Part shown: positions 1 through 55,420 of the stretch, piece after piece
Layout of the letters: each line of letters opens with the position of its first letter
Position numbering within the stretch: position 1 is the stretch's first letter
Assembly (NCBI GenBank): GCA_005656395.1
Contig: SRSI01000004.1
Span: forward strand, 496,001-560,000
Source: Strongyloides papillosus
Lineage: Eukaryota; Nematoda; Chromadorea; Rhabditida; Strongyloididae
Reading direction: 5' to 3'
Length of the DNA stretch: 64,000 nucleotides
Made by a program: the position numbers and the translations under genes
Notes under the pieces: model-generated
What the model saw: only the letters and a program-made list of their open reading frames with translations
Told to the model about the DNA's origin: nothing
Database searches by the model: none

Positions 1-3000
1 ATATATTTGATCATTCATTTTGTGATTAGTAGATATCTTTAACGACCATTTTATCAACAATTTTACTTGTATTGATATATCTGAGAGTATTAATGATATT
101 GGGTTATATAATTTTAAAATAAAAAGAAGTACTGGATCATCAGAAACAAGCACAACAATGGCAGATAAATTTTGTTATATATTTATCTAGTACTTTTTTG
201 AAGAGATAAAATCGGATTTAAATTAAGCATTTTTTTCGTAATTTTTATAATTTACTTATTGTATTTTAATTCTAATTACATATTGCACCATTAAAAAAAT
301 GTTTCTAGGGATTTGCTCAGTATAGTACCATTACCAAATATGTTAAATTATTTTTTATCTATTCGTAGATGTAAAAACAGTTTGTAGTAGGTTAGAAATA
401 CTGTGTTTATTTGTTCTGTAAATTTAACCATTATATGTAACATTTAAGCCTTTAAATAACTAAGTAGCAATTCTTCACTCTGAAGAAGTATCTCCTATAA
501 TGAATGAGAGTAACGTTTAGGAGTGTATTTTTATAATATAGATAATGGTATTATATCGTATTTTGGCATACTAATGTTTCCTATGAGTGATAACTTTTGG
601 ATATAAAAATGAAGAATTATATAAATTTTAACAATACGTTTAATCGTATATTGATTAAAAAAATTAGTATTTCTATATTCTTCAATATTAATACTACCAA
701 ATTCCATTAAAAGGGGAATTTCAATTGTAGGGTGTATCATATAGTCACAATTGTAGAAGTCACATATCAAATAAAATAATGTAAATTACGATTTAGTAGA
801 AAGGTATGAAGTAAAAAGATCATATTTGCCAATACGAATATCACTATAAATGGCCACTGCTCAAAAAACGACAATATTTGCATTAAACGTCTTGAATAAT
901 GTATCCTTTTTTCTCTTTTGTTTTAAATAAATATTATGAGATCCAAATCATGACTGAACGATTGTTCATTTTCGTCAGCTTACATGTTCAACAGTTATTT
1001 TATTTCATTAGCATGTGAAGTTTTTTTTCTATCTCTTTACTATAGAGTGTTACACTATCTCTCTTTAAAATATTTTATTGTTATTATTGCAGATTTAATG
1101 TTTAAAAATATAATGGTGATTATAATATCTGTAAAAAATATCCTGATTTTTTATTGATTTTCCACAAGTATCTTTATAAGATATGTATTACATTTTATAT
1201 TAAAATTAGTAAAAATGTACTATATTTTTATTATTCAATGTGTTTATTCTTTATCAAGAAAAAAATTTAATATTTCTGTTTTTTTAACAGAAATTCATTT
1301 TTGAAATAAATGTTTAAGTCTATTGAGTATTACTAGAAAATTATATATTTTCATTATCAACGATGCTATAAAAATAATAAAAATGTTTTACTTTAATGAT
1401 ATGAGAATTATCATTAAATTTAAGATATATTTTATAATAAATAGAATGTATAGCAGATGTGTGATTTCAATTTTCTAAAAACAAATGTTAAATTCTAAAG
1501 GTTTCTGATAACTGCTAATTACACTTACTTTTTGTCATAGAATTTTTTTATTAAAAAAGAGTTATAATTATTTGCTGATAAAATGAATAGTGGTATTTTA
1601 TTAGAGTTTTTATAAATAATCAAATTAAATAAAAAGTTGATGAAAAGAGTAAATAAAATATTAATTAAAGAAAATGACCTTGTCGCAGAATTAGAATTAT
1701 TGTAGCATTAGAAACAATTTGTAATACTTTTAATAAATCATAGTAACATCTTTAACGTAACAATATTTTTGATTTAAGATTTAATTTTTATCCGACACCC
1801 TGCATTATTAAATATTTTGTTTATATGGTATAGTTTCGAAATGTCACGATTTTTAATTTTATATTCCCAATTTATTAGAAGTATATAAATGTAAAATAAT
1901 CAAAATTATAGTTAGAATTAAATATATATTATTTTAATTGTAAAGATCAATATAACGTGTATATTTTTGGACTTTAATGAATTTTTGTATAAAATTAAAT
2001 ATCCTATAAAATAAAAAAATATATTTTGCATAATATTTTTAAAATAAAAATCATTTCATTATCACTAGAATTAGAGTTTATTCAAATTATTATTTTTAAT
2101 AGTAGTTTAATTGCTTTTAATAGTATTATGTAATGAAATTATAATTAAATAAAAGATTTTTTTGGATTTATAGCAATTTTTAGTAGGTACTAACAAAGAA
2201 TTTCATTATAATTTATCAATGCTATTTTTAATATTTTGCTTTTTCCTTTGAATGTGTTTATTTTTAAACGATATTTTCTATTGTATATAAATTCTTGGTG
2301 TAATTAACTCTTTTTTTGTTACGTCTAAATTTACTATTATTTTTTCATTTCGAATATTTTAGATGATTCAAAAACCGATGATTTATTTTCGAAAAATGGC
2401 TATTATTTATAAGAAAAGCTATTCGATTTTTAATCATAGATATAAATTATAGCTTTAGTTTTATAAAATTTATTAATATTATATATAAGTAATAATTTTT
2501 ACATATATATAGTTACATTTTTTTATTTCTTTTTATTATAGATGCAATATAATATTCAAATTTTATTTTTATTCTTATTATAAAATTAAGTACTGTAGAA
2601 TTTTTTTATACCTATAATATAAATATTTTAAACCTAAAGTAATATTTATTGCCTCATTAGAATATAGCTCATAAAATATTTAAATATTCTTTACAATTTT
2701 AATTTGATAACTTTTTTCTTTTGCTATTTTTTAAAACAATTTTATTTTAAACAACTCTTATTCACCAAAGTATATTATGTACTTAGTTATTATTTTTAAA
2801 ATAGCATTTATTACTTTCATTGAAAAATAATCACAATTATCAAGAAATGTAAAGTTTAACATTTTTTATACGAACTTTGAACTTAAGAGAGTCAGATTTC
2901 TCTTAATACACTTGGCAATGTAAATCATCTTTCTATACCATTAATTTAGGCCATAAATATATCATATTTTGTTACAATGTACTGTAATAAATTGTATAAA

Positions 3001-5340
3001 TGTATCTCATAAATTAACAACTATAAAACAATGAGTTTTAATTTTAAATGAACTGACATTATAAAATAAAAAAAATATTTAACAAATTGACTAGCAAAAT
3101 ATATTGAAGAGTATTATTATTTCATAATATATTATTTTTTTATGAAATAATTATTACCCAGTAAATTTTAAAAAATCGTAATAACAAAATTTCACTATTA
3201 TTAAAAAATATTTTTTAGTGTACAATCTAGAGATTATATGTACTATACTACAATAGTTTAATTCACAGATTAGTATACTTTTATACATAAAATTATATTT
3301 ATAAAGTACTTTTTATGAAATAAAGGAACATCAAAATTATCTGATAAATAAAGGAAGTTTTCGCTTTTTTTTATAAACAAATTGTACCGTAACATTTTAT
3401 TTAATCAATTGATTTATTAATATTTTACAACTATAAAATCAGAACAATGAATATTTATGAATAAGCTAATTGATCTTCAATCTTTCTAAATCAATTTTTA
3501 AGTAATAATATGAATAAAATTTATTACTCAGAAGTTCTATACTTTTTGATATATTTAAACTGTCATTTGTAACTTTTTAACTGAATAAAATATTTTAAAT
3601 TGAAAGATTTATGTTTTAAATAATGTATAATTAAAAATACCATAATTCATTTGTTTTCACAGTTATTTAAAATGATTAACAATTATAAACGTTAATGATG
3701 ATGGTTTATTGATAAAAATTGTGTTAATATAAAAATTATACTGTAGAAAATTTTAGACTTACTATAGAAATCACAGCATATTATGAAGTATTTTATTTAG
3801 ATAAAAAATTTTTACACAAAAATAAGTTCAATAATAAATGTTTACGTTTGAGAAATTTTTTTGTTTGCTTTTAAAAATAAACAAATTTTTATCACGCAAA
3901 AATACTCCATAAATTTTAGTTGATGGGAAATTATTGGAGAAAATATCTGAGTTTCAGCGAAAACAATTAAAGAAAAATATATCAGGATTTTTTTTCCTAA
4001 ATTAAAGGAATAATATTAAGTACTCTTTTTAAGTTATGAAATTTTGAAAGTTTATTTTATACAAAATTCGAGGAAAATATTACCCGAAATAAAAAAGGAG
4101 GTTTTTTTCTCCTATAGAATAGTTGACCAGCTTTTAACAAATTGGACGAAAAATTCTCCGTTAATTTTTTTTGTGATAAATCATTCATAGAAAAAATAAA
4201 CTTATTGACCTAATGAATGGAAATAAATTTCGAAGTTATTTTTTTATAGACAATTTTGTTGTAACAAGTAAAAGCAACTAAAATATTGCTAATAAATTAT
4301 AAAAAAATTAAAACAAATTTTTAACATATTAAAAATACTACTAATCAATAAAATGTATATATTTCAGAAAAAAAACTGAAGTTATCTTATAACATAGATG
4401 AATATATATCTGTCAGAATATTTGAATATTCTAAATATAATTTATAAATTTCACGATATTATTTTATTATATAATTAAACAGTTTTTCATAATAAATCAG
4501 AGTTAGCTTAATTGTTTAATTTGCTCTCTAATCGGGATAAGGATATTTCAACAACAGTTTTGTTTGGCATCTCCCATTGAAATAGTAAATTTCATCAATA
4601 ACATAATATACCCAAAATCAAATTTACAAAGTTAACTTTTTGTCATATTTTATATACCCTCATAATGTTCACAAGAACTTTTGAAATCTAAACTTTTGAA
4701 TTTTTTGTTAAGTGTATCATACCTTATGAATTACAAGTTATTCAATTATATAAGTTAAATAATGACGCAAATAATAATCAACAGCCAATATGGAACGTTT
4801 TGAATAATATCTTAGAATTAGATTTGATAGGTACTATCAATTTGCTTAGAAATCTACTACAATTTTTAAATTATCCACAATAGTAAAGTTAAATAGTAGT
4901 CAGAATTATTTAAACGATTTCTTCTAAGATAGAGGAAATTTGAAGAGCAAAATTTTTTCTCTTCAGTAAAACATGGTAAAAAATTTTTTATAACTGTTTA
5001 TTAAGACAACCAAGTTTTTTAATCTTGAAGAATAAAAATTCTATATTTTATCAATTAGACTAATAGAAATAATAAATTTATTGTTTATTTTCATATTGTA
5101 TTATATATAATTATATTTTTTATTAAATTTTATTTTCCAATATTATACAAATATTATTGATAATATACTACATATATTTATGAATATTATTCAACGGATA
5201 CAAATTGAACAAAATAAATTCTATTTAAAAAAAATAAAATAATGTCAACAAGAATCTTACGACGATCCTCAATAAAGTGTTATTTTAATAATACAATTTT
5301 GTAATTTTTAATGATAATAACTTTAAATAACACAGATTTC
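1..5340. other. AT-rich region with no supported gene
   Basis: I see no exon chain, RNA gene or repeat that I can support. One 79-codon open frame on the minus strand (531-770) has low-complexity composition, no recognisable motif and no convincing splice partners. The stretch lies downstream of the HLH-1 gene, so its right end presumably holds that gene's 3' UTR. Confidence 0.5.
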
Positions 5341-31501: not shown

Positions 31502-33063
31502 TTAAGCTAACTTTTGTTTTATTTCAGATATTGTTTTTCCTTTAGTTTCAGGAACAAATTTAAACGTGAAAATTATACATATTACTAAAAATGCTGAAAA
31601 AATCAAAAATGTGTATGGTCCAAGTATATTCTAAAATAAACAAAAAAGATATTATTTTTGATTAAATACAATAATTTGACATACATTTAACGGTAAAAAT
31701 ATTATACCAACAATAAAACTTGCCAACCAATTACATAAACAGGCTATAGAACTGGCATGAGCTCTAGCATTTGAGTCAAAAATTTCATTAACATAAAACC
31801 ATGGAATTGAACCTGGGCCAAGGGCGAAAAAGATAACAAAAAGTACTATACTAAGAATACTGGCATATTGTCCAAAACTTTTAAGATTCCCTTCACTTTG
31901 AGCCGCTAGTAATGAAACAACAATAAATATTGACATAAATAACACTCCTATTAATCCTGATAAATGTAGCATTCGTCTTCCGCATTTTGGGTGGTCAACC
32001 TTTAAAAAAATTTAAATAAAAAAGTTTAAAAACTTACAAGCCATATGGAAACAATTGTCATTAACAAATTTATAATGCTTATAGCAAAGGTTGCGAAATA
32101 TGGTATATCACCTGTCATTCCAGCATTTTCAAAAATTTTTGTTGAATAAAATATTGCAGCATTAATTCCTGAAAATTGTTGGGAAAGCATCATCATTATT
32201 GATATTATCAAAGGCCACCTTAATGGTGGTGATAACATATCTTTGTAAGCAACTTTATCTTCCTCAGAACTATTACTCATACTTTCATTTTTTATTTCAT
32301 CAAATTCATTTCTAACATCTCTGTTAACTCTAAATTTTTTTAGTGCTTTATAACTCTTTTCCTCATCTTTCTTAGAAATAAGAAGATATTTTGGTGATTC
32401 AGAAATAAAATATAAACCTATAATTTGTATTATTGCAGGAAACAATGAGAATGTGAATATATGTGGCCATAACTCAGTTGTTCCCAAAAATTTTCGATAA
32501 CAAATAATTGTTGAAAAAAGTATTCCAAAAACAATAAATAATTGTGGTAAACTTCCAAACATTCCGCGATACATAGTGGGTGATATTTCAGTAAGATATA
32601 AAGGAACTAAACCAGATGCCAATCCACACCCTATACCTATTAAGAATCTGCCAACAATCAAAAAATAAAATACATTAAAGTATTTGGATGTCATCATAAA
32701 TAAAGTTGCAATTGTAATTATAATATTATTATAATGTAATGATACTTTTCTTCCAAATTTTTCAGCAACAACACCCGTAGCCATCCCGCCAATCATACCA
32801 CCAAAAGAGAATATACTTACTGTTATTGCCCAATATAGATCTAATTTTTGAGTATCTAAATATTTTTCATGAATACTATAATAACTCTGATTAAACCATC
32901 TTTGAATTATCTAAAGAGTTTATTTTATTATAATAGTAATATTACTTACAGAAGCTGAGGGATTAATACATCCTATATGATATCCAAATTGGAATGAGCC
33001 ACCTAATAGAGCTATGATAGAAGCAAATATTAAATGATATGAAACTGGAAAATTTTTCACCAT
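31502..33063 (-). CDS. GLUT-type facilitated sugar transporter (SLC2 family)
   Basis: Four exons: 33063-32950, 32910-32038, 31999-31685 and 31630-31502, all phase 0, give 476 residues, the usual GLUT length. Family signatures in order: FQFGYHIGCINPS in TM1 (about 24-36), GRK at 91-93, PLYLTEISP starting at 141, SESPKYL at 208-214, QQFSGIN in TM7 (282-288), GPGSIPWF in TM10 (390-397) and PETKGKT at 461-467. The pattern predicts 12 membrane helices moving a hexose down its gradient at the plasma membrane. QQFSGIN is close to the QQLSGIN of glucose-carrying class I GLUTs, so glucose is the best guess. ATTACAG precedes the ATG by two bases and could be a trans-splice acceptor. It lies in the same direction as the epimerase gene 702 bp upstream, too far for a tight operon. 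It could be related to C. elegans fgt-1. Confidence 0.92.
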
Positions 33064-33764: not shown

Positions 33765-35533
33765 TTAATTGTGTCTAGCACGGAGACCGTTTGAATAGTC
33801 AATCCAACGATTGGCCACTATATCAATATCATCGCAATCATTTATTATGTTACAAATCCATTTCAAAAGGTAAACATGGACTGCATGATAGTCCCATCTA
33901 GCTAAATTTGGTGCAGTACCGATACCTACATGTCTCAAATCATATAAAGAACCACTTCCTGTATCATATAAAGGTAATAGTGCTTTTAATGATTTTATAC
34001 CATCATTAAAAAGGATTTCTGCATCATTTCCAGGAATATTTATTTTTGAAAAATCATACAATCCTATTAGAGAATATAAAAAACCATTTAAAACAAAAGT
34101 TCCGGGTGTAGTAGGATATTCCTCGTACCATTTCAATCCGAAAAATTTATTAACAACTCCGTTATTTGATGCATTCCTTCTAAATAAATTTAAGGATTTA
34201 AGACCGCTTTCAAGATATACTTTTTTGCCATTAGAATAATTGTATGCTCGGGATAGAACACTTAAAGCATGTCCTTGTCCCATTGCACTCCTCCATCCGG
34301 CTTGCAAGAGTAATCTATTGTCAGCAATAGATCTTGGAACAGGAACATTCCATCCACCATCATCTTTTTGATTTTTAACTAACCAATCAGCAGCCTTCAT
34401 AAATATCTCCATTTCAGCGGTAGAAGATTGATTAACGGTATTTGAAATTGATTGAGTACCAGGTTCACTAAAATGTAAAGTTAATTTTGAGACAGTTACA
34501 TCGCCAATCTTAAATGGATTTTGTGAGATTGAAGTTTTTTTATCTGTAAGTGATAAACCTTTATATACATCAACTAAAATATCTCTTAATATTAAATATT
34601 CCTTTTTTTCAAAATTCCCAAGTGAATAGTATATTTCAATGGGTGATTTCTCACTAACCCAAACACAACGTTCATCTTTACCAAATTTATAGTAAATAAT
34701 TGTTGTCATATTGAATCTATTTTCCCTAGCTACAACTGAAAAATATTGTTTGTCATTTTCTGGTTTCCAGATAAATGATAATACAGAAAGAACAGGATCT
34801 TTACGAAGATTAAAGAAAGCAGATCCATTTTGAGATTTGCAAGTTAATACTGATTGATTGTTCCCTTCCTTTATAGTGATAACTGAATTCCTAGAATATA
34901 TAAAGTATGGCTGACTAATTAATTTTTCCGGTTTTTTAGTATAACCAGAGTATACACTATAATGTTGTAAAGCATATTGGCATATTTGAATAACATAATA
35001 ATATGGTTTAGTATCCCATTGTGTTGACATTGGAACATTATCTTCACCACTGATACATTTAACACGACTTCTTTTTTCAACTTTATATGAAGCAAAATGT
35101 CCGAAAGCTCCAGTTGTGTTATATTGACCTTTATCAGGTGTTTTTGCTTTTGCATATGACGTAGTCCATTCAAATATTTCTAAATAAAAAATTTTAATTA
35201 TGTAATTAAAAAAAGTAAATAAAAGTTACCTTGATTTAATTTTCCAGTAACATCAAATTGCTTTTTGATTACTTGTTTAAAGGGAATGTAAACATCATTT
35301 TCATCTTTATAACATTTAACTTTTTTTTTTGTATTTATATCACACGAAATTACTTTTATTGGACATGAATTTTTACCCCCTAAATCAAAATTTCTCGAAT
35401 AATGTTTTTTCTCTATCCTTTCGATTTCATTTATTGCATTATACTCTGCACCAGTCTTAAATTGTAAATATACAAAAAATAAAAAGATAACAAAAATGGT
35501 AATCAAAAATAATTTTCTTGATCGTATAATCAT
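33765..35533 (-). CDS. hse-5: Heparan sulfate D-glucuronyl C5-epimerase
   Basis: Two exons, 35533-35230 and 35179-33765, give 572 residues, against about 617 for human GLCE. Residues 1-6 are basic and are followed by a single hydrophobic anchor (about 8-23), the type II Golgi topology expected. The central part contains VPMSTQWDTKPYYYVIQICQ (149-168), typical of the family. The C-terminal epimerase domain contains WRSAMGQGH (397-405), YEEYPTTPGTFVLNGF (453-468), SLYDLRH (512-518) and DYHAVH (531-536). These blocks hold the tyrosines and arginine that act in the family's active site. The enzyme converts glucuronic acid to iduronic acid in nascent heparan sulfate in the Golgi, which lets the chains bind growth factors and guidance cues. 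No essential block is missing. The symbol follows the C. elegans gene and is assigned by homology. Confidence 0.92.
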
Positions 35534-50500: not shown

Positions 50501-50505
50501 AAAAG
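50501..50505. repeat. Target-site duplication AAAAG, left copy
   Basis: AAAAG directly before the LTR at 50506 is repeated directly after the other LTR at 55416-55420, a 5-bp duplication typical of LTR retrotransposon integration. Confidence 0.85.
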
Positions 50506-50720
50506 TGCTAGATAATTGATGTTTTATTATCCAAGAACTATAATTTTTACAGATATTATAAAAGAAAATCTTAAACTTACCCCAAATCAGTTGGGTTCTT
50601 TTCAAACTAAAACTGATTTGAGGTAGTATAAATAACGATATTGTAATTAAATTTTAGACTTATTATATTTAAATTTTTAAAATATTATTTTTAGATATTT
50701 GAATATTCAAATATCTAACA
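50506..50720 (-). repeat. 3' LTR (in element orientation) of the gypsy-type retrotransposon
   Basis: This 215-bp repeat matches 55201-55415 at 214 of 215 positions; the single difference is T at 50513 against C at 55208. In element orientation it begins TG and ends CA, as LTRs should. Its first bases also supply the stop codon of the last open frame (TGT then TAG, 50715-50720). Confidence 0.95.
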
Positions 50721-51750
50721 TACGTCTCCTGAAGTGCTGGTGTCAATGGTCATTTGGTCCAGCAATTGAAGTAGATTCTTATCATAAGTGGGTACTAATA
50801 CACTGTTTACTGATTCCTTAAACTTTTCTAATGCTATAGTAGGATCTTGATGCTTAGTGACAGTGTCAGCTGCTTCATTTAACAAATTACCTTTTCTTGT
50901 ATAAGTATGCTTAAATTTTATAAGATTAGGATTCTCTTGTACCAATGTTCTAATTTTTATCCAGATAGATGAATTTTTGTAGCCACGTTTCTCAAATTCT
51001 AAATCAGAAACATCTAAACCATCGTTATCAATGATGTCCATTAAGTATTTTGCATCTATCATAATCAATATAGGTGGTGTCTTTAACGTGGCTGCTATCT
51101 TTACTGCCATATATAGACCTAATAATTCGCCTTTACCATGTGTACGACCATTTGGTGGTAAAGTTCTTTTAAAGGCTCTAACATGCCCATCTACATAACA
51201 GGCCACAGCAGCAATGTTCTTATTTCCATCTGAAGCCAACACAATCCTTGTTTGTATCATTTCTATGTATTTTAAAACGTCCTTCTGGGATACAATTGAA
51301 TCTTTATTGTTTTCTTCAATAATTACATTTGTTGCTGTTTTTGTTGAAGCCTTAGAAACATCACTTAAAGCATCAACACTCAAAGCATCATCATTTGAAT
51401 CTTCATCTTTTAAAATGTCATTCATTGGTAAATCATCTCTCAAACAATTAATGTTTAAGTCATCTTTCTTTAAATCATTACCGTTTAAGATATCATTATT
51501 AGAATTTATCTCCTCTGGCAATAATTCCAACTCATCCTCTTCGCCTTTCTTAAACTTTATTGAATCTATTGTTCTAATATGAAATTTATCCTCAAATTTT
51601 ATTTTGAATAATGATTTTGAAATTTTCGAAATCACTTTACCCTCTCTCCACGGAGATGTTTTATCATATTTAAACCAACAATTTTTCTTAAATGGGGTCT
51701 CATATGGGCAGTACTTTAATACTATATCCACGTCCAAAGAAGGTTCATTT
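50715..51750 (-). CDS. Integrase C-terminal region plus additional RNase H domain
   Basis: The 340-codon open segment (50715-51737 counted from a TTG) extends upstream in frame to the T9 run near 51751 and has no ATG near its start. It is probably made as an extension of the preceding frame. The beginning contains KYDKTSPWREGKVISKISKS, a GPY/F-like integrase C-terminal fold. A long acidic Asn/Asp-rich linker follows (about 66-150). Residues about 163-295 (numbered from the TTG) form an RNase H type I domain with Asp170, Glu204 (GKGELLGLYMAV), Asp228 (MIDAKYL), His277 and Asp291 (NEAADTV), so all four acidic catalytic positions are present. It would degrade the RNA strand of the RNA/DNA hybrid in reverse transcription. 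The stop codon lies within the LTR. An RNase H placed after integrase is unusual for metazoan gypsy elements. Confidence 0.8.
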
Positions 51751-51765
51751 AAAAAAAAAGTTGTC
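51749..51765 (-). promoter_or_regulatory. Slippery T9 run at the pol frame change
   Basis: On the element's strand the run of nine T (51751-51759) is followed by AAATG. It contains TTTTTTA, a classical -1 slippery heptamer (X XXY YYZ). The upstream frame stops at TAA immediately after it, and the -1 frame continues through the integrase C-terminal region. It may be a programmed shift site or a replication slippage mutation. Confidence 0.5.
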
Positions 51766-54757
51766 TGGCTGTGGTATTTTCTCCTTTTGACATATTGTTT
51801 ACTGCATCTGCAGCAAATATAAGTGAATTTTGAAGTGACATACCATCAGACCGTGCCTTCTTTAAGATTTGTTTAATTGTCTGTATGCTTTTCTCAACGA
51901 TACCGTTACTACAACTTCTGTAAGCAATTGATAAACGATGTACAATGTTTCTATCAATCATGCCATTTTGGAATTCTTCTGAGCGAAAGGGAGTTCCTCC
52001 ATCTGTGATTAAAATTCTTATAAGTGAGTATGTATTTATGTAACAGTAAATTTTTTTAACTAGTTCTGATGCAAACATGGAGTTTAGATGATATATTGCT
52101 ACGAAATTGCTATAAGCACATGTTAATACTAGAAATGTTCTAGAATCAAAGAAGAAGATATCTCCATGAACTCTTTCACGTGCCATTATTGGGATTGGCC
52201 ATGAACTTATTATTTGATTTCTATTTCGGCAATTTTCCATACAAGTACTGCATTCATCGTAAAATTGGGTTATATGTGTGCTCATTGATTGAAATATAAT
52301 TCTACCATGACAGAAGCGCAATGTTGATGACGGACTTGAATGGAAACGATGCAACCATTTTACTGCTTGTGGGATAAGACTAGCAGGTATGTATCGTGCA
52401 CTGTTAAGATATATGATATTGACATCTCCTACTTTTTCTATTGACAATTTCGAAACATGTGGTCTAAATGTTGGATGTATACGAGATAATGCGATTTTAT
52501 TTGGATTGATTTTATATTCTAGTAGTAGTTTTGCTTGTGGATCATCTTTATATGCTTCTACTAATTCTTGTAATGTACAAATTCTTCTTTTTGAAGGTAA
52601 TTCTTTCTCAGAATATATTCTACGCAAATGGTCTTCTTCTAAATGTTGATTTGTATTCTCTGAAGATTCCACAATTGTCTTCAAAATTGAATCAGGTAGT
52701 TGACAATCTCTATCTTTCTTTGAGAATGATAAATCATAAGGGTATAATTGTATAAGTAATTTTTGTGCTTTTGTTTGAGCATTATATATCAAAGGTTGAG
52801 ACTTCATCAGATTGATGAGTTCTGTTGAATCTACTTTTATATCTACTGGATACATTGTTGTTACTGGAGAGTAGAGTTGAAGACTTTCAATCGAGGCTAC
52901 TAATAATTTTTGATCTAATGAATAACGTTTCTCGTATGATTTCAAAACTCTGTTGTGAATTCCAATAATACTGATATCATTTGTTGAATTTTTCACTGCA
53001 ATAATTACTGATATAGCATTAAGATTTGCAACTGGGTAGAGTAACGTATTGGTAATATCGCTTGGTACATCTTTGAGGGCAATAGCTTTAGCAAATGAGG
53101 TCAGCAAGTTTTTGAATTTGTTTGTTGTCACTTGATCCCAACTGAAAGTACTACGCGAAGAGTCTTTATTAGACAACATTGAGTAGAATTCAGCAGCCAT
53201 CATTGAAAATCCCACTACGTTACTGGAGAAGTAATTCAAAGATGCCAATGTTCGTTTCAGTTCATCTCTATTGCTTGGTACTTTTAAGTTAACTATACCG
53301 CTTACAGTGTCAATGGGAATTGAAAGTCCTTGCGATATACTATAGTTGAAACCAAGATATGGTACTGAATCAGCAAAGAATTTGCATTTATGCAAAGATA
53401 TCTGAATATTGTGGTTCATCAAGATATTTATTATTTGACGAAGAAGTTTACCATGATCTGAAACATGCGAACGTAAGAGAAGATCGTCCATGTAGATTGT
53501 CAAAGAACACTTTTCACTTTCTACAGGTTGTAATAACTTGGTGATTACTTCAATCCAAATCTCTGGAGATTTCTTCCATCCAAAAGGTAATCTTACATAC
53601 TCATAAATTCCAAATGGAAGACCAAATCTAGTGAGGGAAATGGAATCGTCTTCTAAACCTATGGTATTGAAAGCTCCAGATATGTCTAATACCGAGACCA
53701 CATTGAAATTGCTCTTATTAAATATTGTCAGATCTCTTATTTTGGGTAAAACATATGGTTTTAACTCTGTATATTTATTGATATTCAATAATGCCAAACA
53801 AATTCTAGGATCCTTATTAGGTCCATTATCAACTATAACCGCGAAACTTCTCTCACCACCAAATTTGTCTGTAACTTTCCGTACTATACCTCTTCTAACT
53901 TCCTCTTCTACCTTCTCCTTGACTTTATCAATTAGATGTGATTTTATTGGGAGAATAGGAAATCGCTTCGGTCTATAATCTTTTGATAAACGAATGCTTG
54001 TGAAAATTTTCGGTTGGAGTAGTTGATCTTTATCGTAAGCTTTCGGGTTATCTTTTAAGAATTTATCAAATCCATCTTCTTTAGCTAGTACAGAACAAAC
54101 ATGATCAATTTGTTCATCGTAGTTTAATGTATTTAATGGGACGTTCTCCTTAGGTGCTTGTTGGACTTTCTCACATTCAAAAATATTTACAGAGAACTCT
54201 TTTAATGTTTTCATACCAATAGTTACTACGTCACTAAGTGGGTCTAACAAGAATCTTAACTTCTGATGTTGTAACTTTTCACACCCTGCTAATGATGTTT
54301 TCAGGTCGATTGCTCCTTTCGTAAGGGATTTACCTCCATGAGCATTGGTAACCAATATTTTAACATTAGGATCAAGTTGACTTTGGACTGATAGTGGAAG
54401 GGAATCAAAGAATGCTTGACTAATATAATTGTTACCAGCTCCAGAATCTAGACTTGCTGAAGTTGTTATCTTTAAATCATTTAATGTGATTTCTCCAAAA
54501 CAACTAGAGAAGCCATCTTCCATGCTTTTGATGGTATCAGAAGGTACAAAGCGTAGAGGGGTAGATTGTGATGATGTATCTTTATTTTTGTTTGTAGCAG
54601 TGGGGTTAGAGGGTGGTTTCGGGATCTCTGTGTTTGATTTATAATTTAAGATTCGTCTTTTTCTATCTTCTTTTGTTAAGACAGTTTTGACATCTTCTAA
54701 AGAGGGACGAGTTGGGTTTATGCAGATTTTGATTTGTAATTCGATGGGAATAGACAT
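51749..54757 (-). CDS. pol: Retrotransposon Pol: protease, RT, vestigial RNase H, integrase core
   Basis: The 1002-codon frame opens with the end of a gag-like region and a Pro/Thr/Ser linker. The aspartic protease has LDSGAG at 103-108. RT covers about 250-470, with the first catalytic Asp in VLDISGAFN (358) and YMDD at 422-425. The RNase H-like part (about 570-690) lacks the usual first Asp and the Glu of the gypsy EKEL motif (here DQKLL), though VDST keeps an Asp at 643. The integrase has an HHCC zinc module (about 803-843) and the catalytic core with Asp866, Asp919 and Glu955, exact DD35E spacing. The frame ends at TAA right after the T9 run. Its ATG lies 6 bases after the gag stop in the same frame. 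Apart from the RNase H part, all enzymatic residues look functional. Confidence 0.9.
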   Translation of the reverse strand: MSIPIELQIKICINPTRPSLEDVKTVLTKEDRKRRILNYKSNTEIPKPPSNPTATNKNKDTSSQSTPLRFVPSDTIKSMEDGFSSCFGEITLNDLKITTSASLDSGAGNNYISQAFFDSLPLSVQSQLDPNVKILVTNAHGGKSLTKGAIDLKTSLAGCEKLQHQKLRFLLDPLSDVVTIGMKTLKEFSVNIFECEKVQQAPKENVPLNTLNYDEQIDHVCSVLAKEDGFDKFLKDNPKAYDKDQLLQPKIFTSIRLSKDYRPKRFPILPIKSHLIDKVKEKVEEEVRRGIVRKVTDKFGGERSFAVIVDNGPNKDPRICLALLNINKYTELKPYVLPKIRDLTIFNKSNFNVVSVLDISGAFNTIGLEDDSISLTRFGLPFGIYEYVRLPFGWKKSPEIWIEVITKLLQPVESEKCSLTIYMDDLLLRSHVSDHGKLLRQIINILMNHNIQISLHKCKFFADSVPYLGFNYSISQGLSIPIDTVSGIVNLKVPSNRDELKRTLASLNYFSSNVVGFSMMAAEFYSMLSNKDSSRSTFSWDQVTTNKFKNLLTSFAKAIALKDVPSDITNTLLYPVANLNAISVIIAVKNSTNDISIIGIHNRVLKSYEKRYSLDQKLLVASIESLQLYSPVTTMYPVDIKVDSTELINLMKSQPLIYNAQTKAQKLLIQLYPYDLSFSKKDRDCQLPDSILKTIVESSENTNQHLEEDHLRRIYSEKELPSKRRICTLQELVEAYKDDPQAKLLLEYKINPNKIALSRIHPTFRPHVSKLSIEKVGDVNIIYLNSARYIPASLIPQAVKWLHRFHSSPSSTLRFCHGRIIFQSMSTHITQFYDECSTCMENCRNRNQIISSWPIPIMARERVHGDIFFFDSRTFLVLTCAYSNFVAIYHLNSMFASELVKKIYCYINTYSLIRILITDGGTPFRSEEFQNGMIDRNIVHRLSIAYRSCSNGIVEKSIQTIKQILKKARSDGMSLQNSLIFAADAVNNMSKGENTTARQLFF

Positions 54758-54763
54758 AATAAT

Positions 54764-55201
54764 TTAATCAATTGCTAACTGTTCATAGTAATGCTCATCT
54801 AAGACTTTAGCTTTATCAAGACATTCTTCTATCAATTTACTAAAGGAGTTTTGAATATTTGGGTTGTGACGTGTACGTCTAAGGTCTTGTAGCAGTTGGT
54901 TGTAGTGTGGTTTGTAGAGGTCATTATTCGATAAATTTGTTTCAACGAATTTGATAAGATGTTTTACAGAAGGGCTTGTTTCCAAACTGTCTTCACTGAA
55001 TTGGAGAATATAATCTTGAGATGTTTGGTGGGGTAACAACTCTAAAATTCTCTGAATTTTACATTCCTCGGAGTCAGACAAGAATGCAGAAATACCTTTG
55101 AGGTAAATATGATAATTTTCCTTTCTTCGGTAACTAGCGAATGGTATGAATATGCTTTTTTGTTGCACATTCTTGTGAAAATTATTTTCCGGGGGCGCCA
55201 T
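54764..55201 (-). CDS. gag: Gag-like protein of the gypsy-type retrotransposon (N-terminal part)
   Basis: The frame has 145 codons from the ATG at 55199-55201, which straddles the LTR end and the primer binding site. The open frame reaches back into the LTR to 55300, but that part is U5-like sequence and unlikely to be translated. The protein is helical and charged, with no zinc knuckle. Gag capsid domains usually continue through a helix followed by a motif like LPxxLQxxIxxxPxxLEE. Here the TAA at 54764-54766 falls just before IELQIKICINPTRPSLEDV of the next frame, which looks like the continuation of the same capsid domain. The stop is therefore either a nonsense change or a site of readthrough or reinitiation. 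Confidence 0.7.
   Translation of the reverse strand: MAPPENNFHKNVQQKSIFIPFASYRRKENYHIYLKGISAFLSDSEECKIQRILELLPHQTSQDYILQFSEDSLETSPSVKHLIKFVETNLSNNDLYKPHYNQLLQDLRRTRHNPNIQNSFSKLIEECLDKAKVLDEHYYEQLAID
55189..55200 (-). other. Primer binding site of the retrotransposon
   Basis: TGGCGCCCCCGG on the element's strand begins immediately after the 5' LTR. Its complement ends in CCA as a tRNA 3' end does, and it is strikingly GC-rich against the AT-rich background. The tRNA was not identified. The gag ATG overlaps its first two bases. Confidence 0.8.
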
Positions 55202-55415
55202 GCTAGACAATTGATGTTTTATTATCCAAGAACTATAATTTTTACAGATATTATAAAAGAAAATCTTAAACTTACCCCAAATCAGTTGGGTTCTTTTCAA
55301 ACTAAAACTGATTTGAGGTAGTATAAATAACGATATTGTAATTAAATTTTAGACTTATTATATTTAAATTTTTAAAATATTATTTTTAGATATTTGAATA
55401 TTCAAATATCTAACA
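55201..55415 (-). repeat. 5' LTR (in element orientation) of the gypsy-type retrotransposon
   Basis: 215 bp, TG...CA, nearly identical to 50506-50720. Transcription of the element should start here and run toward lower coordinates. Confidence 0.95.
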
Positions 55416-55420
55416 AAAAG
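55416..55420. repeat. Target-site duplication AAAAG, right copy
   Basis: This partners 50501-50505. Both copies derive from the 5' untranslated part of the mariner element. Confidence 0.85.

Follow-up and report, generated by a model that had tools for sequence, protein, structure and literature searches.

Strongyloides Ty3/gypsy elements with an RNase H1-like domain behind the integrase and a degenerate native RNase H

The window element and its last open reading frame

We analysed a 64,000-nucleotide stretch of Strongyloides papillosus DNA (contig SRSI01000004.1 of assembly GCA_005656395.1, positions 496,001 to 560,000; hereafter the window), the minus strand of which carries a Ty3/gypsy long terminal repeat (LTR) retrotransposon at 50506-55415. 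This element of a Strongyloides host encodes, in addition to the native RNase H (RH1) that follows its reverse transcriptase (RT), a second RNase H domain (RH2) behind its integrase (IN). The two 215-nt LTRs are equal at 214 of 215 bases and have TG...CA ends, and the 5-bp target site duplication (TSD) CTTTT flanks the element on both sides. Because the LTRs differ at one base and CTTTT is present on both flanks, the insertion is recent. The TG...CA LTRs, a TSD within the 4-6 bp range, the order RT - RNase H - integrase and Ty3 as the nearest match all agree with the assignment to Ty3/gypsy. No env gene was found: the last open reading frame (ORF) ends in the 3' LTR, and the minus strand within the element holds no other ORF of at least 100 aa.

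In the 1002-aa product of the pol ORF, RVT_1 (1e-23) is the sole Pfam domain above its curated cut-off; rve (6.7e-5), Integrase_H2C2, RT_RNaseH and RT_RNaseH_2 lie below theirs. The closest solved structure to this product is Ty3 Gag-Pol (8.9e-24, residues 279-970), and the next match, 7kse, which we take to be of foamy virus, follows at 5.1e-12. Ty3, for which structures of Gag-Pol (7q5b) and RT-RNase H (4ol8) are solved, shares the RT - RNase H - IN order, and no solved structure is closer to the window pol; it has one RNase H, which is catalytic. A retroviral derivation of RT and IN was rejected by the nearest solved match only, Ty3 standing far ahead of retroviral RT in what is a nearest-match comparison and not a tree.

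An earlier note, made from the letters of the window alone, had claimed a type I RNase H domain with Asp170, Glu204, Asp228, His277 and Asp291 after the integrase C-terminal fold. As expected from that claim, profiles built without the window copy matched the IN C-terminal domain (CTD) at 51692-51549 and RH2 at 51260-50835 in the last ORF, and in an alignment of 21 rows, relatives included, D170, E204, D228 and D291 occupy the four columns that do not vary. The order of the domains and the four acids thus held, but the histidine did not: the column of the catalytic His is occupied by Arg281, and His277 sits four residues off. When compared by hhalign with a profile of 20 relatives from the same genome, the window RH2 matched at 97.5% (E 5.4e-12, 133 columns), and it also scored 45 bits against a profile built without it.

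By itself the window domain is too divergent for curated profiles, PDB or fold searches; its relatives decide whether it is an RNase H. Several results obtained with the window RH2 alone weigh against that identity. The best RNase H-like match in Pfam was RVT_3 at E 0.08, under the cut-off; a PDB sequence search gave no match up to E 1; and an AlphaFold model made without an alignment, with a predicted local distance difference test (pLDDT) score of 51, did not support the fold structurally. Foldseek on that model was uninformative, with nothing at E 0.001 or better and no RNase H but mostly acetyltransferases among the 50 matches listed. In addition, the window copy has Arg where 41 of 49 places in the genome have His, its RH2 is very divergent, and its frame is broken ahead of the CTD. 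A likeness by chance, in a domain that is no RNase H, would agree with the lack of a curated Pfam or PDB match, the poor model and the absence of RNases H among the Foldseek matches listed, but it is extremely improbable and was rejected, given the hhalign and 45-bit scores against profiles made without the window copy, all four acids in place, and a ratio of nonsynonymous to synonymous substitution (dN/dS) of 0.20 (see below). The RNase H profile search, a check set beforehand, had a divided outcome: curated Pfam misses the window copy, but 16 of the 17 relatives that share its architecture are matched by PF00075 (RVT_3 matches 4 of the 17), and the window copy matches the relatives' profile. 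Judged from these alignments and profiles, the window sequence holds a type I RNase H domain, and the architecture described in the earlier note is confirmed. The parts of the element are collected in Table 1.

Table 1. Features of the window element, in positions of the window
Feature	Position	Strand	Basis
5' LTR, 215 nt, TG...CA	55201..55415	-	214/215 bases equal to 3' LTR
3' LTR, 215 nt	50506..50720	-	LTR comparison
TSD CTTTT, 5' side	55416..55420	-	sequence
TSD CTTTT, 3' side	50501..50505	-	sequence
Putative primer-binding site, directly after 5' LTR; also codes Gag start MAPP	55189..55200	-	position
gag-like ORF	54764..55300	-	assigned by position; without Pfam capsid match
pol ORF, 1002 aa: RT, native RNase H, integrase zinc finger, integrase core	54757-51749	-	Pfam and lineage profiles
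Reverse transcriptase, YMDD at residue 422	53345..53767	-	RVT_1 match
Native RNase H (RH1), some catalytic acids missing	52787..53140	-	Pfam and alignment
Integrase zinc-binding domain (H2C2)	52232..52390	-	Pfam match under curated cut-off
Integrase core (rve)	51914..52177	-	under curated Pfam cut-off; matches the lineage's own profile strongly
Integrase CTD, within last ORF	51549..51692	-	profile built without window copy; homologues in other elements
Second RNase H (RH2): D170, E204, D228, Arg281 at His position, D291	50823..51260	-	alignment, hhalign, profiles
Last ORF, 340 aa: CTD, linker, RH2; stop inside 3' LTR	50715..51737	-	ORF list

The gag-like ORF and the pol ORF share a frame, with one stop shortly before the pol ATG (54766-54757) that may be read through or may be specific to this copy. 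DSGA, read by eye in the window translation, is presumably the protease motif. The Gag start MAPP coded by the putative primer-binding site (55201-55189) recurs in families L060, L062 and L064 (L numbers denote places in the genome and their families), is IAPP in L077, and differs in L069 and L075; the recurrence of this Gag start in four other families suggests a shared tRNA primer. Elsewhere on the minus strand of the window lie a 421-aa ORF (33765-35030) that we take to resemble glucuronyl C5-epimerase and a 256-aa ORF (32026-32796) that presumably resembles a major facilitator superfamily-type sugar transporter.

Spread of the architecture and state of the two RNase H domains

Searching this genome at the protein level, we found other elements with a further domain behind the same integrase CTD. 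We read 49 RH2 places in the DNA, leaving out ten further ones, and profiles for IN, CTD and RH2 found the three in this order on one strand in 47 of the 49; the other two, L056 and L073, hold RH2 only. A single-copy oddity was rejected on this count. At 70% identity the 49 places form 23 clusters, which correspond to about 21 families because L073, by eye, belongs to the L038 family as a fragment, and the window family has L074 as its second copy. The D, E, D and last D of RH2 are retained in 43 of the 49 places, the remaining six being cut off, frameshifted, broken or misaligned. The His column holds His in 41, Asp in three and Lys in two; the window has Arg there, the broken C24 copy described below has Leu, and one place has a gap. 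Residues other than His (Asp, Lys or Arg) occur at this position in three families, L069/L070/L071, L075/L076 and that of the window. A 17-row alignment, with rows 19-28% identical to the first row, has eight invariant columns: D, D, N and E of IN, and D, E, D and D of RH2. PF00075 has 55 matches in the genome, and two of the loci, neither with an integrase match, look like host RNase H1 (L030, matching RNase H1 chains at 7.3e-26, and L068, by eye). The genome is rich in retroelements, with 401 rve and 591 RVT_1 first-look candidates, 150 of each being scored.

Regarding other nematodes, the same architecture was looked for in protein databases only, by a word-based and insensitive search; it was found in S. 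papillosus and S. venezuelensis, and no case outside Strongyloides was among the proteins scored. Database proteins P0002, labelled S. papillosus, and P0003, labelled S. venezuelensis, bear RH2 and belong to the L064 family, P0002 being 100% identical (rounded) to 1043 residues of L064; P0001 is also labelled S. papillosus. The last ORF as query retrieved P0001 alone among 2447 candidates; query A1 gave at least 16 proteins scored from 7990 candidates, with PF00075 listed for two, both from Strongyloides; and the CTD and RH2 of the L077 family retrieved none of 2701 candidates. A collection scan with A1 yielded no conserved stretch usable for searching.

In the window RH1, the first Asp of the DEDD set (D1) aligns to V and the Glu to L, D2 is kept, and D3 is uncertain because the alignment is poor there, which bears out the earlier statement that at least two catalytic acids have been lost. 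Two to four of the DEDD acids are missing from RH1 in 8/8 RH2-bearing families (window, L015, L060, L062, L064, L069, L075 and L077, with S. venezuelensis P0003 counted with L064 as one family; P0001 and P0002 were not entered, and P0004, with no motif, was left out). All four acids are present in RH1 of 8/8 control gypsy proteins. Five of the 13 controls (P0005-P0017) were left out: in P0005 and P0015 the motif was not found, and P0009, P0011 and P0017 had a wrong motif or a cut segment. L060, L064 and P0003 have Ser as the second residue of the RT motif (YSDD).

With the window RT-RH1-IN as query in its own genome, 45 elements were obtained (46 of 580 first-look candidates scored), and the best 24, window included, all carry RH2. 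RH2 is present in 35 of the 45 and absent from 10, and canonical RH1 was found in 0/35 elements with RH2 compared with 9/10 without. Worked by hand, this distribution amounts to 10/C(45,9), about 1e-8, a figure that is only descriptive because related elements are not independent. Likewise, RH2 lies within 6 kb downstream of canonical RH1 in 0 of 150 canonical places (57 RH2 places), which says little alone because 0.44 would be expected by chance placement. Three features of these comparisons tell against the association of RH2 with a decayed RH1: canonical RH1 in the 45-element test means a place among the 150 scored of 430 PF17919 candidates, residues not being read; RH2 was counted as absent there mostly for want of a PF00075 match, and PF00075 misses divergent copies like that of the window; and the controls for RH1 and RT residues come from databases, none labelled Strongyloides and most without an organism name.

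Codon comparison of the window with the C24 copy (G000:C24:244491-249875, L074), a second copy of the window family that is 92% identical in pol, gave a dN/dS of 0.20 for RH2 (dS 0.46, 95 codons) and 0.28 for CTD and linker. Similarly, RH2 of L040 compared with L041 gave 0.22, with dS near 2. By these codon counts RH2 is under purifying selection in the window family. Less favourable values were obtained for RH2 of the distant pair L060 and L064 (0.65) and for recent copy pairs with few changes (0.43, 0.53, 0.70 and 2.06), and both count against constraint on RH2; of the ten codon comparisons, two had saturated synonymous sites, one of them (L062 vs L008) being out of frame and void. The C24 copy has stops, about 170 extra bases at the RH2 start and further breaks. 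The window pol ORF and last ORF lie in different frames, and because P0001 reads continuously over the same junction the break looks copy-specific; programmed frameshifting at the junction is also conceivable. Gag to RH2 is one open frame in L064, L069, L075 and L077. L060 has RH2 in another, overlapping frame (542-4540 and 4474-5031), with the break at the RH2 start, and L062 has gag as a separate ORF.

Origin of RH2

The RH2 profile built without the window copy had its best match in 3h08 (6.6e-23), a bacterial RNase HI that we take to be that of Chlorobium, and also matched 2qk9 (1.8e-21), an RNase H1 that is presumably human. Not far from these were 2lsn (3.6e-21) and 7o24 (6.4e-21), both of which we take to be foamy-virus RNases H. 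Because the latter two are nearly equal to the cellular matches, RH2 could have been taken by recombination from a retrovirus or an Odin-like element and not from a cellular RNase H gene. We regard such a source as unlikely: other retroviral RNases H were weaker, at 6.7e-14 and below among the 60 matches listed, and the window RT and IN are nearest to Ty3 (8.9e-24), with 7kse, presumably foamy virus, at 5.1e-12.

When a tree was made from 42 RNase H domains, comprising only RH1, RH2 and non-archaeal cellular rows, all 16 RH1 were split from RH2 and the cellular enzymes (99/96), and RH1 of the RH2-bearing elements formed one group (96/78). Consistent with this split, an approximately unbiased (AU) test rejected the grouping of all RH2 with RH1 of their own elements (p 0.024), and inspection by eye showed, in most RH2 rows, the His column and a long handle region like that of RNase H1, neither of which is seen in RH1 rows. 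When the window RH2 alone, a long branch, was moved, it was compatible with all RH1 (p 0.395) and with RH1 of the RH2 elements (p 0.14), as would be expected if RH2 had arisen by duplication of RH1 within the element. For RH2 as a set we rejected duplication on the 99/96 split and the AU test, and with the handle region and His column also set against it this origin is highly improbable. The earlier note had held that a duplicate of the element's first RNase H, present in a single copy only, would undo its claim; what was found instead is the same architecture in 47/49 places together with the split and the whole-set test just given, the window RH2 alone being the exception. As a set, RH2 is RNase H1-like by profile and tree, and is not a duplicate of RH1.

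The unconstrained 42-domain tree does not unite RH2 in one clade, four cellular sequences being nested within it, so that two changes are needed for RH2; this speaks against a single gain, and different gypsy elements of the genus might have acquired RH2 separately. Such repeated acquisition seems doubtful, since a single RH2 clade was not rejected by the AU test (p 0.249), RH2 occupies the same place behind the same CTD in 47/49 places, and in a tree of RT and RH1 the 7/7 RH2-bearing elements tested lie on one side of a 99/99 branch compared with 12 database controls (P0015 left out). Counting against the replacement favoured below, that tree's join of the window with L077 carries a warning that both are long branches. 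The simplest reading would be one gain, in the lineage's ancestor. The earlier note's proposal of an independent, convergent gain is likely, with the Ty3-like RT and IN on its side.

A proposed replacement of RH1 by RH2 and its known counterparts

Overall, we favour an old, lineage-wide replacement of RH1 by RH2 in Strongyloides Ty3/gypsy elements, with RH2 serving reverse transcription, and give it a probability of slightly over three-quarters. What the sequences themselves carry is the architecture across families, the loss of acids from RH1 and their conservation in RH2, the separateness of the RH2 set from RH1, and purifying selection in the window family; from these we infer that RH2 is catalytic, acts in reverse transcription, was gained once and is delivered to the RT complex. 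In the ancestor of an old and diverse Ty3/gypsy lineage, the 3' end of pol would have acquired an RNase H1-like domain that follows the integrase CTD; this domain would have taken over RNA-strand removal in reverse transcription, and RH1 beside RT would have decayed to a non-catalytic, connection-like domain. RH2 would be translated at the end of the polyprotein and would reach the RT complex as an integrase-RH2 fusion or after protease cleavage. Since the acids are incomplete in RH1 and complete in RH2, which the end of pol encodes, a division of labour is likely in which RT would keep an inert RH1 as a connection and RH2 would cut the RNA strand, make and remove the polypurine primer, and remove the tRNA. 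A simple pattern scan found a purine tract just ahead of TGT at the presumed 3' LTR start in 6/15 families.

The place of RH2 behind the integrase CTD in 47/49 places would also suit an active RH2 that serves integration, being tethered to integrase and clearing cDNA ends of the tRNA primer or of leftover RNA, or resolving target hybrids. We consider this rather unlikely, however, because RH1, the enzyme of reverse transcription, is without its acids in 8/8 RH2 families. That loss means that a replacement is needed, a part that host RNase H1 could also play. Beyond the replacement as such, we lean, with less assurance, towards a nematode Ty3/gypsy lineage having independently captured a cellular RNase H1-type domain that works from behind integrase, so that the RNase H no longer adjoins RT.

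In retroviruses, lokiretroviruses and Odin elements the new RNase H stands before the integrase. Of the features of the retroviral type of dual RNase H, a degenerate native RNase H was found in 8/8 Strongyloides families, and a new domain between native RNase H and integrase was not found. The element would behave as a dual-RNase H element, is Ty3/gypsy by order and sequence, and departs from retroviruses in the position of the new domain. A dual RNase H is described for retroviruses, lokiretroviruses and Odin elements (PMC9040795; here and below, this paper and PMC5348765, PMC12440569 and PMC4299795 stand for excerpts of their texts). As in the Strongyloides lineage, these gained a new RNase H, of animal type in their case, and the native one decayed to a tether (PMC9040795); in pol, their new domain comes after the native one (PMC10508981), whereas here it follows the IN CTD, and the pol is Ty3-like and accompanied by no env.

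Plant Tat elements likewise have an extra RNase H, and their native one is degraded wherever the new one sits (PMC10508981). Five structures are described for them (next to RNase H, before RT, in a separate ORF before pol, in a separate ORF before gag, and two in sequence), none of which places it behind IN (PMC10508981). The extra RNase H of Tat is archaeal-type (PMC10508981). The Strongyloides RH2 set matches PF00075 and RVT_3 in the proportions given above, with the window copy matching RVT_3 only, under the cut-off; an Arg in the active site marks the archaeal type (PMC5348765), and a His there goes with the RNase H1-like (Fungi/Metazoa) type. The oomycete elements Archon and Chronos are, like the Strongyloides lineage, Ty3/gypsy elements with a second RNase H and lost native acids, but their second domain is archaeal-type and forms a dual arrangement together with the native one, and their hosts are oomycetes (PMC5348765). 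Chromoviruses also carry an extra domain behind integrase at the pol C-terminus, which in their case is a chromodomain and not an RNase H (PMC5348765, PMC12440569). The domains downstream of integrase in the excerpt of PMC4299795 are dUTPase and the GPF/Y motif, and a 2025 survey of the Troyka lineage describes RT and RNase H without a tether domain (PMC12440569). In titles and abstract starts of the open-licence literature, outside which most subscription papers fall, we found no description of an RNase H behind integrase, in nematodes or elsewhere. The swap is best read, from its sequence signature, as convergent with those of retroviruses, Odin, Tat, Chronos and Archon, and the position behind integrase is not among the arrangements given for them in these texts.

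A hallmark of how retroviruses arose, the repeated acquisition of a second RNase H as the first decays, turns up again here in a lineage from animals, with about 21 families in a single genome. Relative to the arrangements in PMC10508981 and in the excerpts of PMC9040795 and PMC5348765, the position behind integrase is new. The benefit of gaining a second RNase H has been described as not yet understood (PMC10508981). If RH2 does work from its place after integrase, no explanation that requires the new domain to sit beside an RT-adjacent tether can be general, and removal of redundancy, as suggested in PMC10508981, would gain weight. Because the families range from near-identical copies to about 20% identity within one genome, selection on RH1 and RH2 can be measured in them. 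If true, the independent capture towards which we lean would be a further, mechanistically distinct route to the swap that marks retrovirus origin, and would show that adjacency to RT is not required.

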